DNA of 7,629 nt, taken from positions 1-7,629 of the forward strand of contig BOAU01000090.1 of the NCBI GenBank assembly GCA_026002025.1, in the 5' to 3' direction. Positions 2,430-7,201 of this stretch are shown here, in pieces. The notes below the pieces were generated by a model. It was not told where the DNA came from. It searched no databases and saw only the letters and a list, made by a program, of their open reading frames with translations. The translations under genes and the position numbers were made by a program. Positions within the stretch are counted from its first letter, which is position 1, and each line of letters opens with the position of its first letter. The stretch comes from Spirochaetia bacterium. GTDB lineage: Bacteria; Spirochaetota; Spirochaetia; Treponematales; Breznakiellaceae.

Positions 2430-2441
2430 ACCCTTTACCTC

Positions 2442-2996
2442 CTATTTTATTGTCAGTGCCGCCTGTTGTTTCTCTATATAGCAACTTACAGCGGTATTCA
2501 TGTTTGCCATACGCTGTTGTATGACAGCCTTTTCTATCATGTTAATTCCGGGAGTACGAAGAGAGTTACTAAGCCGGGTCCGGTGGGCGTTACAAGCCTG
2601 ATGAAAAGCGTCCTGTGGAAGACCATGCTTACGGTTTCTTGTAGTGGGATGGGTTTTTTCCGCTTCCTGGTAGGCCGAAGGGCGGCCAACAACATCAAGG
2701 GAACGCAGGGCATCTTCAAAGCTCTGAACGGCCTGGGTAAGGCTGTTGCGGGTAATGGTGTCCGCAATTTCACAGTAATGGAGTTCCTGTTGAAGAAAAG
2801 TTTCTTCTGCAAGAATTAAAATCTTGCAATCTGCTATTTTTTTGGCTTCCTGAAAAGCAGCAAAGGCTGAGGAAATGCCGCTTTCATAAGAAAGCCGCCC
2901 TTGATGTTCCCTACCATCGTCGGCAAGCATTTTACGGCCGGAATTTATACGGAAAACACCGGCAAAAATCTCATCGAGTAATCCAGTCTTTTCCAA
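2442..2996 (-). CDS. Unknown 184-aa protein, middle gene of the flavoprotein operon
   Basis: I do not recognise a named family. The protein is soluble, rich in Ala, Gln and charged residues, and mostly helical; residues about 42-105 (SSAFAAFQEAKKIADCK... to SFEDALRSLDVV) could pack as helical hairpins. A later part reads DAFHQACNAHRTRLSNSL and PGINMIEKAVIQQRMANMNT. Cys and His are scattered without a clear metal motif. The start is the TTG at 2996: the frame has a stop only seven codons upstream, and AGAGG (complement of 3003-3007) lies six bases before it. The gene therefore begins inside the last 26 bases of the upstream gene, a sign of coupled translation. Its TAG stop adjoins the ribosome site of the flavoprotein gene. 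I recall similar spirochaete hypothetical proteins but cannot confirm this here. Confidence 0.6.
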   Translation of the reverse strand: MEKTGLLDEIFAGVFRINSGRKMLADDGREHQGRLSYESGISSAFAAFQEAKKIADCKILILAEETFLQQELHYCEIADTITRNSLTQAVQSFEDALRSLDVVGRPSAYQEAEKTHPTTRNRKHGLPQDAFHQACNAHRTRLSNSLRTPGINMIEKAVIQQRMANMNTAVSCYIEKQQAALTIK

Positions 2997-3213
2997 ATTC
3001 GGCCTCTGCTTCGGCTAAGTTATAGCCGCCTTTTATAAGGAAGTCTGCTCCAAGGTGGCTTTTGGCAAATTCGGCCAGATAGGGGGGCATGGGGTATTGG
3101 TGCCTTAACAGCACATCGGCTTCGGCCTTTTTCCCGGCACTTTCAAGGGCAAGCACCCGCTCCATGAGGGCACATTCTTCATCCAGGGTCATTGTCTGCT
3201 GTGTCTGGGGCAT
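2971..3213 (-). CDS. Unknown 80-aa protein, first gene of the flavoprotein operon
   Basis: A small soluble protein of 80 residues with no membrane segment or signal peptide. The first half is a helix with TLDEECALMERVLALESAGK (about 8-27), followed by a second helical stretch, YPMPPYLAEFAKSHLG, and a C-terminal segment, FLIKGGYNLAEAEAEFGKDW. The ATG is preceded by GAGGAG (complement of 3220-3225) six bases away, a very good ribosome site, and a TATAAT-type promoter lies about 55 bases upstream. The 3' end overlaps the next gene by 26 bases. I do not recognise a named domain. The tight packing with the next gene argues that both are real and act together, perhaps as partners. Confidence 0.65.
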   Translation of the reverse strand: MPQTQQTMTLDEECALMERVLALESAGKKAEADVLLRHQYPMPPYLAEFAKSHLGADFLIKGGYNLAEAEAEFGKDWITR

Positions 3214-3269
3214 CTGATACTCCTCGAAACTTCGGCCTTAGGGCCTCGTTGGATATTCCTTACCTTTGA

Positions 3270-3299
3270 ATTATACCTACGACAACGAGATTTAGGCAA
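3270..3299 (-). promoter_or_regulatory. Promoter of the minus-strand three-gene operon
   Basis: Read on the minus strand, TTGCCT (complement of 3294-3299) is followed after 18 bases by a perfect TATAAT (complement of 3270-3275). Transcription would start near 3263, giving a leader of about 50 bases before the ATG at 3213. A seven-base inverted pair, CTCGTTG (3245-3251) and CAACGAG (3283-3289), brackets the -10 box and could be an operator. Confidence 0.5.
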
Positions 3300-3346
3300 G
3301 GGAAACAATTCAAAAAATTCTTTGCCTTTACTCTTCAATATTTTTA

Positions 3347-3375
3347 TTGACATTTGATTGTATTTCCGTTAACCT
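3347..3375 (+). promoter_or_regulatory. Candidate promoter of the biotin operon
   Basis: A perfect TTGACA -35 box (3347-3352) is followed after 17 bases by a weak -10 candidate, TAACCT (3370-3375). If used, the transcript would begin around 3381-3383, only a few bases before the birA ATG at 3386. The -10 lies inside the left half of the BirA-type palindrome, so bound repressor would block RNA polymerase directly. The weak -10 keeps confidence moderate. Confidence 0.4.
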
Positions 3376-3394
3376 CATTTTATTCATGGTTAAC
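3368..3394. promoter_or_regulatory. Probable BirA operator (GTTAACC-N13-GGTTAAC)
   Basis: Two perfect seven-base half sites, GTTAACC (3368-3374) and GGTTAAC (3388-3394), face each other across 13 bases. Known BirA operators in firmicutes and proteobacteria have the form TTGTTAACC or TTGTAAACC, then about 14-16 bases, then the inverted half. The match in half-site and position, directly at a birA gene encoding an N-terminal HTH, makes this a strong candidate, though the spacer is slightly short. The right half overlaps codons 1-3 of birA. Confidence 0.75.
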
Positions 3395-4402
3395 CAAAAA
3401 GGACTTTCCACCAGGGCCTTCATTCTCAGGGAACTCCGCAGAAATGAGGGCGCCCCGGTTTCCGGTGAAGCCCTGGCCCATGGGGCGGGGATTTCGCGGG
3501 TGGCGGTGTGGAAGGGGGTGCGGTCCCTTGTCGCGGCGGGATATTCCATAGTGAGTGAAGAAGCCGGTTACCGGCTTGCCGCCGCTGCCGAGGATTTTCT
3601 TTACCCCTGGGAATTCGGGGAAAAGGAAAGACTCTTTCAGCATTTTGTTTCCACCGACAGCACCATGGACCGCTCGCGGGAAGCGGCGGAGCAAGGGCTG
3701 GGCAGCGGCACGGTGATCACCGCGGAAACCCAGACCGCGGGCCGGGGCCGGAGCGGCAGGGCCTGGGCCTCAAAACCGGGGGGACTTTTTTTTACCATCC
3801 TGGAACGGCCCGACATGGCGGTGGCCGATTATGCCCAGGCGTCCATGGAGGCCCAGATCGCTGCGGCAAGAACAGTGGAAAGGCTCTGCGGAAAAAGGGC
3901 CGCTCTCCGCTGGCCCAACGATGTGTACATCAAGGGCAAAAAGATAGCCGGCATCCTTACGGAACTTTCAGGGGAAGGCGACCGGATACGGTGGATAAGC
4001 TGCGGGGTTGGGCTCAACATCAACAACCGCACAGCGGCGGATGCCACAAGCTGCGCCAAAATCGCGGGGCATGATCTTTCGCGCCGGGAAGGGCTCACGG
4101 TATTTCTCAATGAAGCGGAAAAGCTGCGTTCTTCCCTTGCCGCTTCTGACGCGGGCCGTCAAGAACTTGCGGCCCTCTGGAATTCCCTGGCAGAGGGAAT
4201 CGGCGCAGAGGTTTTGATAATCCCCGCGGAACACGGCAACAGTAAAACTGTGGGGGAAAACAGAATCCTGGGAAAAGGGATTTTCTCCGGTCTTGATCCG
4301 TCGGGCCGGTGCATAATTAAAACTAAAGCCGGTAAGGAAAGGGCGGCCGCGCCGCTTATGTATTCCCCCGGATCGGTATCACTCATTTTTAAAGGATTAT
4401 AA
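3386..4402 (+). CDS. birA: Bifunctional biotin-protein ligase / biotin operon repressor
   Basis: A 338-aa cytoplasmic enzyme. It makes biotinyl-5'-AMP from biotin and ATP and attaches biotin to a lysine of carboxylase carrier domains; with its HTH it also represses biotin genes. Residues 7-65 form the winged helix (STRAFILREL... GISRVAVWKGVRSL... GYRL). The catalytic core has the biotinyl-AMP loop GRGRSGR (119-125), RWPND (175-179), the lysine-bearing KKIAGILTE (about 185-193) and GVGLNIN. The C-terminal SH3-like domain (about 285-330) is present, so this is a full-length group II BirA. The frame is open back to a TTG at 3347, but that TTG is part of the -35-like box; the ATG at 3386 gives the normal N-terminus. 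It has no Shine-Dalgarno sequence, consistent with a leaderless mRNA. The stop lies one base before bioY. The operator over its start suggests autoregulation. Confidence 0.95.
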   Translation: MVNQKGLSTRAFILRELRRNEGAPVSGEALAHGAGISRVAVWKGVRSLVAAGYSIVSEEAGYRLAAAAEDFLYPWEFGEKERLFQHFVSTDSTMDRSREAAEQGLGSGTVITAETQTAGRGRSGRAWASKPGGLFFTILERPDMAVADYAQASMEAQIAAARTVERLCGKRAALRWPNDVYIKGKKIAGILTELSGEGDRIRWISCGVGLNINNRTAADATSCAKIAGHDLSRREGLTVFLNEAEKLRSSLAASDAGRQELAALWNSLAEGIGAEVLIIPAEHGNSKTVGENRILGKGIFSGLDPSGRCIIKTKAGKERAAAPLMYSPGSVSLIFKGL

Positions 4403-4403
4403 T

Positions 4404-4991
4404 ATGGAAGCAAAACAGAACGCCGTCTCGGTCTCAGCAAAAAGAAGGACCATCACAGGCATCACCCTGGCCGCCCTCTTCGGGGCCCTCATTGCAGCGG
4501 GGACCTTCATCGCCATCCCCCTGCCCTTTTCGCCGGTACCCATCGTACTGCAGAACCTCTTCGCCCTTCTCGCAGGGCTGATCCTCGGCCCATTCCTGGG
4601 GGCCGCCGCAGTGGGGCTCTACCTTATCGCCGGGATCATCGGCGCGCCGGTATTCGCCGGGGCCTCCGGGGGCATCGCCCGCATTATCGGCCCCACCGGG
4701 GGTTTCCTCTTCGGCTACATCCTTGCCGCCTTTACCGCCGGGCTCATTGCGGGCAGGCCCCGGCCCGGTGTCAAAACCCCTGTCTGGCGGATCATCATTG
4801 CGGCCCTTGCGGGGCTCCTCATCGTATATGTGCCGGGGGTCATCCGGCTCAAGTTTGCCCTTGACGCAGGCTGGGGCAAGGCCTTGGCTTCGGGCTTCAT
4901 CCCCTTTATCATCGGGGACGCCCTGAAGGGCGTTACGGCAATCATCATCGCCCCGCGCCTGCGCCGTGTTGCCGCGGACCAGCTTGGCTGA
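4404..4991 (+). CDS. bioY: BioY, biotin-binding S component of an ECF transporter
   Basis: A 195-aa inner-membrane protein with about six membrane helices (roughly 18-40, 45-65, 66-85, 95-117, 128-148, 160-185). It captures biotin at the outer face and is tipped across the membrane by the energy-coupling module. Family signatures are IPLPFSPVPIVLQNLFALLAG (38-58, the substrate-side loop), GLYLIAGIIGAPVFAG (71-86), GGIARIIGPTGGFLFGY (89-105) and GDALKG (171-176), whose Asp172 and Lys175 match the conserved Asp/Lys biotin-binding pair of BioY. AAAGGA (4391-4396) lies seven bases before the ATG, within the end of birA, so the two are translated in series. It is followed directly by ATPase and EcfT genes, making a self-contained BioMNY-type system. 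Confidence 0.95.
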   Translation: MEAKQNAVSVSAKRRTITGITLAALFGALIAAGTFIAIPLPFSPVPIVLQNLFALLAGLILGPFLGAAAVGLYLIAGIIGAPVFAGASGGIARIIGPTGGFLFGYILAAFTAGLIAGRPRPGVKTPVWRIIIAALAGLLIVYVPGVIRLKFALDAGWGKALASGFIPFIIGDALKGVTAIIIAPRLRRVAADQLG

Positions 4992-5754
4992 CAGTAATAC
5001 TGTGGAACTGCTTTTTTCCATACGGAACCTTTCGGTGGTGTTCCCCGGCAATATAAAAGCGCTTTCAAAAATAAACCTTGATATCCGCGCCGGGGAATGC
5101 CTCCTCCTTGCGGGTTCCAACGGTTCGGGGAAAACCATGCTGATGCGCTGCATCGCCGCTCTCCTTGATCCAAGCGAAGGGGAAATTTTCTTCCGCGGCC
5201 GTCCCCTGAACCAGACGGGAAAAATCCTGCGCCGGGAACTGGGGATCATTTTCCAGGATGCGGACGCCCAGATCCTGGGGGAAACCGTGGAAGAGGATAT
5301 CGCCTTTGGGCCGGAAAACCTGGGTCTTTCAAAAGCGGAAGTTGCGCAGCGCAGTACTTCAGCCCTGGAGGCTTTAGGCTTAACTGAAAAACGGGAAGCG
5401 CCGCCCCGGCAGCTTTCCGGCGGGGAGAAACGGCGGCTCGCCGTTGCGGGGGTCCTGGCCATGGGCTGCGATACGGTGATCATGGACGAGCCCTTTGCAA
5501 ACCTTGACTGGCCCGGGGTGGTCCAAACCCTGGAAATTATTCGGGACTTAAAAAACAGGGGCAAGACCCTGATCATCCTGACCCATGAACTTGAAAAAGT
5601 TCTCGCCTTTGCGGACCGTCTGGTGATTCTCCACCGGGGCATTATCCGCTGTGACGGAAAACCCGCGGAGGTCCTTGATCAGCTTGAAGGCGAATGGGGT
5701 GTGCGGGACCCCCGGAAAACCTATTCCGCCGTGGAGGACTGCTCTTGGCTGTGA
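4984..5754 (+). CDS. ecfA: ECF transporter ATPase (EcfA/BioM) for biotin
   Basis: A 256-aa cytoplasmic ABC ATPase that drives biotin uptake. From the TTG at 4984: Walker A GSNGSGKT (44-51); Q-loop FQDADAQ (90-96) with the EcfA-typical ETVEEDIAFGPENLGL (100-115); ABC signature LSGGEKRR (144-151); Walker B VIMDEP (165-170) with D-loop NLD; and switch His201 in ILTHE. All catalytic parts are intact. Only one ATPase gene is present, so it probably works as a homodimer, as in BioMNY systems. The start is uncertain: GTG at 4966, TTG at 4984 and GTG at 5002 are all in frame, and none has a strong ribosome site. I chose 4984 because it overlaps the bioY stop in the same TTGGCTG context as the ecfT start. 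The upstream frame must be translated for coupling. Confidence 0.93.
   Translation: MADSNTVELLFSIRNLSVVFPGNIKALSKINLDIRAGECLLLAGSNGSGKTMLMRCIAALLDPSEGEIFFRGRPLNQTGKILRRELGIIFQDADAQILGETVEEDIAFGPENLGLSKAEVAQRSTSALEALGLTEKREAPPRQLSGGEKRRLAVAGVLAMGCDTVIMDEPFANLDWPGVVQTLEIIRDLKNRGKTLIILTHELEKVLAFADRLVILHRGIIRCDGKPAEVLDQLEGEWGVRDPRKTYSAVEDCSWL
5733..5737 (+). promoter_or_regulatory. GGAGG ribosome site that fixes the ecfT start at a TTG
   Basis: GGAGG lies inside the last codons of ecfA, seven bases before TTG at 5745 but 13 bases before the alternative GTG at 5751. Spacing favours the TTG, giving a 10-base overlap between ecfA and ecfT. Confidence 0.6.
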
Positions 5755-6437
5755 CTCCCTACGCTTATTGCAGCGGAAACAGCCCCCTCCACCGCTGTCC
5801 CCCATTGGCAAAACTTGCCGGTATCCTTGCGCTTTCGGTGTTTTCATTTTCTTCTATAATAGGACTTATTATAGCGGCCCTCATCGTCATAAGCGCCGCC
5901 ATCGTTGCGGGAATCCGGCCCTGGGAACTTTTGCGGGGAAGCCGGCCCCTTTTGATCCTGGTCATCTTCATCATCATATTGAGAACATTTATCTTTGACG
6001 GTTCAGGGCCAACACTGTGGGGCATGGCTTTGCCCGGCATAAGTATTACCGGGTTTTGGGGAGGCATCCGGCAGGGGCTTTCCATTGCGGCGGCCTTTGC
6101 GGCGGGGGCGCTGCTTTTTGCGGTCACCACCATGGGGGAACTGCGGCGCAGCCTGGGCAGGAACAAACTCAGTCTGGGCATCTCCCTGATGCTGGGCTTC
6201 CTTCCCCGTTTTTTTGAAATTTGGGAAGCCGCCAACCTTGCCTGCGAAGCCCGCTCCTGTAAAAAAGGACTCCGTCGGCTCATCATCATCCTGCCCCTGA
6301 CGATCGAAGGGATGATGCGGATCGCCGGTGAAACCGCCCAGGCCCTGGAAGCCCGGGGCTATTGCATTTACTTTCAGATTCCGGGAAATTACCGAAATTT
6401 GAAGAATTTTAACCGCAAAGGCGAAGAAGGCGACTAA
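5745..6437 (+). CDS. ecfT: EcfT (BioN), transmembrane coupling protein of the biotin ECF transporter
   Basis: A 230-aa inner-membrane protein linking BioY to the ATPase. The N-terminus (YCSGNSPLHRCPPLAKL) is typical of the family. Helices lie roughly at 22-55, 72-86, about 110-130 and in the long coupling region. The two cytoplasmic coupling motifs are present as ARS (169-171, in CEARSCKKG) and ARG (203-205, in ALEARGY), each ending a helix that docks in an ATPase groove. The start is TTG 5745, set by GGAGG at 5733-5737; GTG 5751 is the alternative. After the second motif the tail (206-230, CIYFQIPGNYRNLKNFNRKG...) is encoded by the left arm of a large inverted repeat, and the stop lies in repeat DNA. 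The tail is probably acquired and may not matter for function. Otherwise length is normal and nothing essential is missing. Confidence 0.92.
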   Translation: MAVTPYAYCSGNSPLHRCPPLAKLAGILALSVFSFSSIIGLIIAALIVISAAIVAGIRPWELLRGSRPLLILVIFIIILRTFIFDGSGPTLWGMALPGISITGFWGGIRQGLSIAAAFAAGALLFAVTTMGELRRSLGRNKLSLGISLMLGFLPRFFEIWEAANLACEARSCKKGLRRLIIILPLTIEGMMRIAGETAQALEARGYCIYFQIPGNYRNLKNFNRKGEEGD

Positions 6438-6763: not shown

Positions 6764-7201
6764 ATGAAAGACTATAAGAGTCTATCCCATAGCGTATGGG
6801 ACTGCAAGTACCACATAGTGTGGATACCGAAGTTTCGAAAGAAGAAGCTTTATGGGGAAGTGGCAACATATTTGGGGGAAATATTCCACGAATTGGCACG
6901 GCAGCGGGAGAGCAAGATAGTGGAGGGGCATATATGCCCGGATCACATCCATATGCTGATAGAAATCCCGCCGAAATACGCGGTAGCGGAAGTGGTGGGA
7001 TATATCAAAGGTAAAAGCGCCATAGCGATAGCCCGGACATATTTGGGTAAGCGGCAAAATTTTACCGGGCAGAACTTCTGGGCAAGAGGATACTTTGTAT
7101 CGACAGTAGGATTGGACGAAGAAGTTATCAAGCAATATATCCGGGGACAGGAAACCGAGGACAAACGGCTAGACCAACTGGACATGTTCAAAGATAACTG
7201 A
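6764..7201 (+). CDS. tnpA: IS200-type Y1 HUH transposase
   Basis: A 145-aa enzyme, full length for the family. It cuts and joins single-stranded DNA at the element ends, forming a 5' phosphotyrosine link. The HUH metal motif is His61-Ile-His63 (PDHIHMLIEIPP), and the catalytic residues are Tyr125 and Gln129 in IKQYIRGQE. The N-terminus SVWDCKYHIVWIPKFRKK and the NFWARGYFVSTVG block are also typical. The start is the ATG at 6764, five bases after AGGAGG. Another ATG at 6760 lies only one base after it and opens a five-codon frame that stops at 6777. Translation is probably held low by the upstream stem. The gene lies just after the biotin operon in the same direction, behind the ecfT terminator. 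Confidence 0.95.
   Translation: MKDYKSLSHSVWDCKYHIVWIPKFRKKKLYGEVATYLGEIFHELARQRESKIVEGHICPDHIHMLIEIPPKYAVAEVVGYIKGKSAIAIARTYLGKRQNFTGQNFWARGYFVSTVGLDEEVIKQYIRGQETEDKRLDQLDMFKDN

Follow-up and report, generated by a model that had tools for sequence, protein, structure and literature searches.

The start of birA in a 7,629-nt stretch of DNA from a termite-gut spirochaete (Spirochaetia; the window) very probably combines, judging from its sequence, a BirA operator with the promoter of a biotin operon. GTTAACC (3368-3374) and GGTTAAC (3388-3394) flank a 13-base spacer (3375-3387), and the exact motif GTTAACC-N13-GGTTAAC occurs a single time in the window. With up to three mismatches permitted, the window contains four matches, as compared with a mean of 0.32 in shuffled sequences. 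The birA ATG is located at 3386-3388, and the right half-site spans the third base of codon 1 to the third base of codon 3. A TTGACA box lies 15 bp before the left half. A preliminary description of this DNA had proposed two perfect half-sites, the right one covering birA codons 1-3, and a perfect TTGACA, all of which we found at exactly these coordinates. The elements are arranged as follows.

3347-3352, plus strand: TTGACA, -35 box; a match of at least 5/6 precedes the left half by 15-16 bp in 29/34 exact biotin sites.
3368-3374, no strand: left half-site GTTAACC, exact and kept in relatives.
3370-3375, plus strand: proposed -10 box TAACCT, inside the left half; T follows GTTAACC in 28/34 biotin sites.
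3375-3387, no strand: 13-bp spacer, read from the sequence, whose final AT forms the first two bases of the start codon; N13 in 30/34 exact biotin sites.
3381-3383, plus strand: predicted transcription start, 3-5 nt before the ATG, from the position of the -10 box.
3388-3394, no strand: right half-site GGTTAAC, codons 1-3, exact; its first G is shared with the ATG in 22/24 birA-first treponeme loci.

Pfam matches support the proposed four-gene biotin operon, birA-bioY-ecfA-ecfT, and a mismatch scan located a further motif copy in the divergent FMN reductase gene.

3386-4402, plus strand: birA, HTH and biotin ligase (group II type), protein starting MVN; PF08279, PF03099 and TIGR00121 above cut-off.
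4404-4991, plus strand: bioY, biotin ECF transporter S component; PF02632, E 4e-41.
5002-5754, plus strand: ecfA ATPase, GTG at 5002 the likely start (longest ORF from 4966); ABC_tran, with ECF_ATPase models matching below cut-off.
5751-6437, plus strand: ecfT, CbiQ family, GTG at 5751 the likely start (longest ORF from 5694); PF02361.
2208-2234, no strand: two-mismatch motif copy inside the FMN reductase gene, 195 nt from the gene start.

The N-terminal HTH (PF08279) and the ligase domain (PF03099) place the first gene product among the group II biotin protein ligases. An IS200-type Y1 transposase gene (6764-7201) is found downstream of the operon, and the ~0.9 kb between the FMN reductase gene and birA (2430-3330) contain two minus-strand ORFs (2442-2996 and 2971-3213) with no Pfam match. 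At nucleotide 195 of the FMN reductase gene, the exact motif is present in loci L127 (2405), L132 (1161), L206 (622) and L210 (2884), and a two-mismatch copy, as in the window, in L001 (4687). Its distance to the birA operator is 288-314 bp in L127, L132 and L210, 296 bp in L001 and 1.16 kb in the window. This copy may be an auxiliary operator or may reflect a protein motif (VN-x5-VN).

We compared the site to known BirA operators, for which a consensus TTGTAAACC-N14/15-GGTTTACAA has been described in proteobacteria and Bacillus (PMC545781). The likeness consists of a similar AACC-GGTT core within an inverted repeat, a location before biotin genes and an accompanying HTH-bearing BirA (PMC545781). 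The window has exact inverted halves of the GTAAAC/GTTAAC type with C/G on the inside, and they are placed at a biotin-gene promoter in a genome encoding such a BirA. In Desulfovibrio vulgaris, a BirA site is predicted at position 6 relative to the bioB start (PMC545781). In Bacillus subtilis, GGTTAAC is part of a primer for amplification of a bioO half-site, and BirA is reported to bind its operators only with biotin and ATP, probably as a dimer, a single half-site not being bound (PMC4016012). Unlike the known operators, the window site has a spacer of 13 rather than the published 14/15 bases, lacks the outer TTG and has its right half coded as MVN; the system further differs in its probable leaderless transcript and in having a putatively autoregulated birA as the first gene. 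The preliminary description had called the spacer short, which holds against the published N14/15 but not among the relatives, where N13 is usual. B. subtilis operator spacing is said to differ from that of E. coli (PMC4016012), and because spacing thus reportedly varies between lineages we do not count N14/15 as defining and treat N13 as a spacing variant of the BirA operator. A repressor gene in first position, an operator overlapping the promoter and a missing Shine-Dalgarno (SD) sequence also characterize the autoregulated acuR-acuI-dddL operon of Rhodobacter sphaeroides, whose transcript is reported to start exactly at the AUG and whose repressor is reported to be weakly translated (PMC3017554). 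That repressor, in contrast, belongs to the TetR family, and its operator has 8-bp repeats with a 6-bp spacer and lies upstream of the ATG (PMC3017554). Among the matches listed in our literature search, no paper joined an N13 BirA operator, promoter/start overlap and a leaderless birA, and none concerned the in-gene N13 copies described below.

The layout at the birA start is conserved. A contig scan for relatives returned 37 loci, the nearest being L001 (Spirochaetia bacterium PG1894_85), whose BirA is 96% identical; the other fetched birA-first loci share 43-60% BirA identity with the window (48-60%, best segment, for the other spirochaete scan loci). Layout was counted in 24 fetched treponeme loci, the window included, in which birA comes first and has an operator; the fetched birA starts cover all but 11 of the 51 genomes in which group II BirA was read. 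The ATG uses the first G of the right half in 22 of these 24 loci; in L201 the ATG lies 3 nt earlier, and in L140 (G187) the operator is kept, with an SD and the birA start 5-11 nt further downstream. At 22/24 loci the left half is preceded at 15-16 bp by a TTGACA-like box (5 or 6 of 6), L010 and L129 having only a 4/6 match at this spacing. Together, the operator/ATG overlap and the box support an operator placed at the promoter, and the preliminary reading came through its own check, conservation of the palindrome in relatives. BirA residues 2-3 at the 22 overlap starts are VN, with IN once (L003). Where treponeme birA lacks an operator at its start, no resolved start reads MVN and one reads MIN (L004), and VN therefore looks as if imposed by the operator.

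Of 13 operons headed by bioY, 12 of them with a resolved start, 10 have their start codon 0-2 nt beyond the right half, and at these 10 starts the half-site GG falls mostly within the SD (-2.2 to -10.0); two others show the ATG overlap, and some bioY-first loci have an additional in-frame ATG upstream. The 34 exact biotin-operon sites comprise 30 N13 and 4 N14, one of the latter in SAR324. A TTGACA matching at 5/6 or better at 15-16 bp accompanies 29/34 of them but only 3/222 sides of in-gene copies. Similarly, T directly follows GTTAACC in 28/34 biotin sites as compared with 38/111 in-gene sites read on the coding strand, which points to TAACCT as the -10 box. Beyond the spirochaetes, TTGACA-N15/16-GTTAACC-N14-GG[T/C/A]TAAC precedes birA at three Desulfobacterales-type loci and one SAR324 locus, with the birA start 17-19 nt downstream.

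The birA mRNA is likely to be leaderless or nearly so, as deduced from the position of the -10 box. The box at 3370-3375 is spaced 17 bp from TTGACA and matches TATAAT at only 3/6 positions, for which reason a promoter scan of the window did not list this promoter. Pairing with the anti-SD over the 20 nt before the birA ATG gives +1.2 kcal/mol, no better than the shuffle mean of +1.3, bearing out the earlier statement that no SD precedes birA. The other genes of the window reach -5.4 (bioY), -5.4 (xre), -10.2 (IS200-like transposase) and -11.5 kcal/mol (FMN reductase). At 20/22 overlap starts the SD energy is -0.2 or higher, the exceptions being L122 (-3.3) and L210 (-2.4).

These features suggest a mechanism in which group II BirA charged with biotinyl-AMP would bind the inverted repeat as a dimer, its left half overlying the -10 box and its right half birA codons 1-3. 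The bound dimer would shut the birA-bioY-ecfA-ecfT promoter, and rising biotin would lower both BirA and the transporter. As promoter, operator and start codon all fall within 48 bp, the mRNA 5' end would fall ~3-5 nt before the AUG, with no SD. Translation of birA is probably leaderless and would thereby hold BirA at a low level, whereas bioY behind it has its own SD.

It is unlikely that the site is a BirA operator with the mRNA starting well upstream and birA translated from a leadered message. SD-less leadered genes exist, and the poor -10 box would fit such an arrangement; the spacing of -35 box, operator and ATG, however, is nearly fixed across the fetched loci, and the 20 bp upstream of TTGACA are unconserved even in comparison with the 96%-identical L001. 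There, identity is 4/20 in the 20 bp before -40, 8/10 for TTGACA and 10/10 for operator and start, a footprint as expected if the promoter ends at the gene. In L001, 75 bp separate the operator from the start of an upstream FMN reductase gene (98.5% identical); the corresponding gap in the window is 939 bp.

We next consider the same motif outside biotin operons, which is the reason why the site alone is not sufficient proof of biotin regulation. The exact N13 motif is present in 65/195 genomes of the family, with 184 sites in total and 1-11 per genome; a reversed-pattern control listed none. With one mismatch permitted, at least 109 matches were found versus 6 in the reversed control, and by eye, among the matches listed, the variants mainly have T in place of the inner C. 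We sorted 162 distinct sites (N12-15) from fetched loci, a subset of all exact sites with the G114:C152 region left out, into 34 biotin-operon sites, 111 inside genes and 17 others; genes were called there as longest non-overlapping ORFs, which makes some starts too long (545 aa for birA of G065). The in-gene N13 copies come from loci L051-L092 and L141-L240 (genomes G001-G189). They recur at matching positions in mutS, radical-SAM/DUF2344, ligA, purH, dtd, xanthine-dehydrogenase-like and lactate-racemase-like genes. Reading frame 0 is used in 92 of the 111 and frame 2 in 19, and the frame in which TAA would be read is never used. Neighbouring N13 pairs 34-60 bp apart occur at L233, L236, L239 and L227 (G113, G114 and G178), with a mismatch in one of the two sites that are 34 bp apart.

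Chance or codon periodicity does not account for the N13 copies: in 14 genomes, 30 other spacings (N15-44) gave one match as compared with 64 exact N13 sites, the genomes having been picked mostly for containing sites and the reversed-pattern control there giving 4 matches. The lone match at another spacing combines two neighbouring N13 sites. A hand count in 18 genomes chosen only via BirA matches gave 38 N13, 6 N14, 1 N12 and no N15 or N16 sites.

The copies differ in how well their protein surroundings are conserved. Over 18 flanking residues, pairwise identity is 9% in mutS (12 genes) and 11% in radical-SAM genes (13 genes), these genes having been chosen by exact motif match, which fixes 14 bases. 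Coincidence of a protein motif is thus rejected for both, and the unconserved surrounding protein points to what is apparently selection at the DNA level. Flank identity of 41% in ligA, 46% in purH and 37% in dtd would fit either cause. A protein-motif coincidence is possible for the xanthine-dehydrogenase-like (59%) and lactate-racemase-like (78%) genes, and we accept it for the ftsA copy (VN-RAG-type), found mostly in genomes without group II BirA and in some with it. In an unselected survey of mutS loci in 30 genomes, 13 had the motif exactly, 6 with one mismatch and 2 with two, and 9 had no copy; counted from the mutS start, 20 of the 21 copies fall at nt 2436-2628, and one (L269) lies outside the gene.

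Many of these sites are linked on the chromosome. Among the matches listed, five of five sites with 0-1 mismatch on G014:C3 fall within 82 kb and six of nine on G003:C2 within 165 kb; both contigs were noticed because of their sites, and the small probabilities are not independent tests. In the complete genome G155 (3.856 Mb, dnaA at 685), ligA with a site lies at 1.905 Mb, mutS without one at 1.929 Mb and birA with a site at 2.036 Mb. Sampling of its weak GC skew gave positive or zero values in 9 windows up to 1.85 Mb, mixed values in 3 and negative values in 8 from 2.06 Mb, and the three genes lie near the replication terminus, where the skew changes sign. Three of the five exact sites of G155 are located elsewhere on the chromosome, one of them the ftsA coincidence. 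Two sites ~8 kb on either side of dnaA in G178 count against a terminus role. The N13 site is not parS but a different element: the canonical parS palindrome is separately present as an exact copy in 7/8 genomes, on the dnaA contig in G003, G014 and G008, ~15 kb from dnaA in G155 and on other contigs in G090, G011 and G178.

Short sites scattered around the replication terminus are known from the E. coli MatP/matS system, in which the 13-bp matS is present in 23 copies in 800 kb (PMC3330122). The in-gene copies differ in having an unrelated motif, 27 bp long with its N13, in fewer copies; their terminus position is seen in one complete genome only, for two exact sites and the mutS gene, and they have only candidate reader proteins. 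Since letters and spacing of the in-gene copies equal those found at birA, in vitro binding by BirA is to be expected. BirA may have a chromosomal role, or another protein may recognize the same site. A search of 12 genomes for a BirA-HTH paralogue found none close, with two weak matches beyond BirA (E 0.0025 and 0.086). Group II BirA is present in ~51/195 genomes, and many treponemes have a match to a second, HTH-less biotin ligase of group I type. Among the 51 group II BirA genomes, 8 lack the exact site. We tentatively suggest, as a possibility below even chances, that BirA of termite-gut treponemes, or a factor of the same specificity, also binds the N13 sites in mutS, ligA, radical-SAM, purH, dtd and other genes, many of them near the terminus, with BirA doubling as a chromosome-domain protein or the sites buffering free BirA.

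Improbable, by contrast, is the idea that the site belongs to a chromosome-organizing terminus factor other than BirA, the birA copy being one of its sites and biotin control secondary. Consistent with such a factor, the exact copies spread through a third of the family genomes lie mostly in genes among those fetched. Furthermore, G167, G169, G170, G172 and G177 (2-5 exact sites) have no group II BirA, no BioY and no close BirA-HTH relative, and G061 and G062 (3 sites each) also have no group II BirA, G061 with BioY; these genomes, however, may be incomplete assemblies. Against such a factor, the birA site, unlike the in-gene copies, is coupled to a promoter and a start codon, its core recurs in distant BirA operators, and in G027, a single large contig, the only exact site is that at birA, at 0.70 of ~4.6 Mb. 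Two or more N13 sites go with group II BirA (36/51 genomes versus 7/144 others, read by hand and confounded by kinship). Finally, an RNA hairpin (7-bp stem, 13-nt loop) controlling translation around the AUG is very improbable and is rejected on sequence, since, although the halves are complementary and the AUG sits at the loop-stem border, the left half lies upstream of the predicted mRNA start, changed halves in relatives (GTTATCC/GATTAAC in L003, GTTACCC/GGTTAAC in L010) break the pairing with no compensatory changes, and the near-fixed N13 and conserved -35 box fit a DNA site.

Our preferred reading of the birA start is thus a promoter, an operator and a start codon fused in 48 bp, with the operator apparently dictating residues 2-3 of its own repressor. 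From this layout, dozens of uncultured treponemes are predicted to have leaderless starts and BirA sites. The in-gene copies are the larger matter, as they look like a chromosomal site family sharing its motif with a metabolic repressor. If BirA does read them, a biotin-sensing repressor would link vitamin (carboxylation) status to chromosome behaviour.
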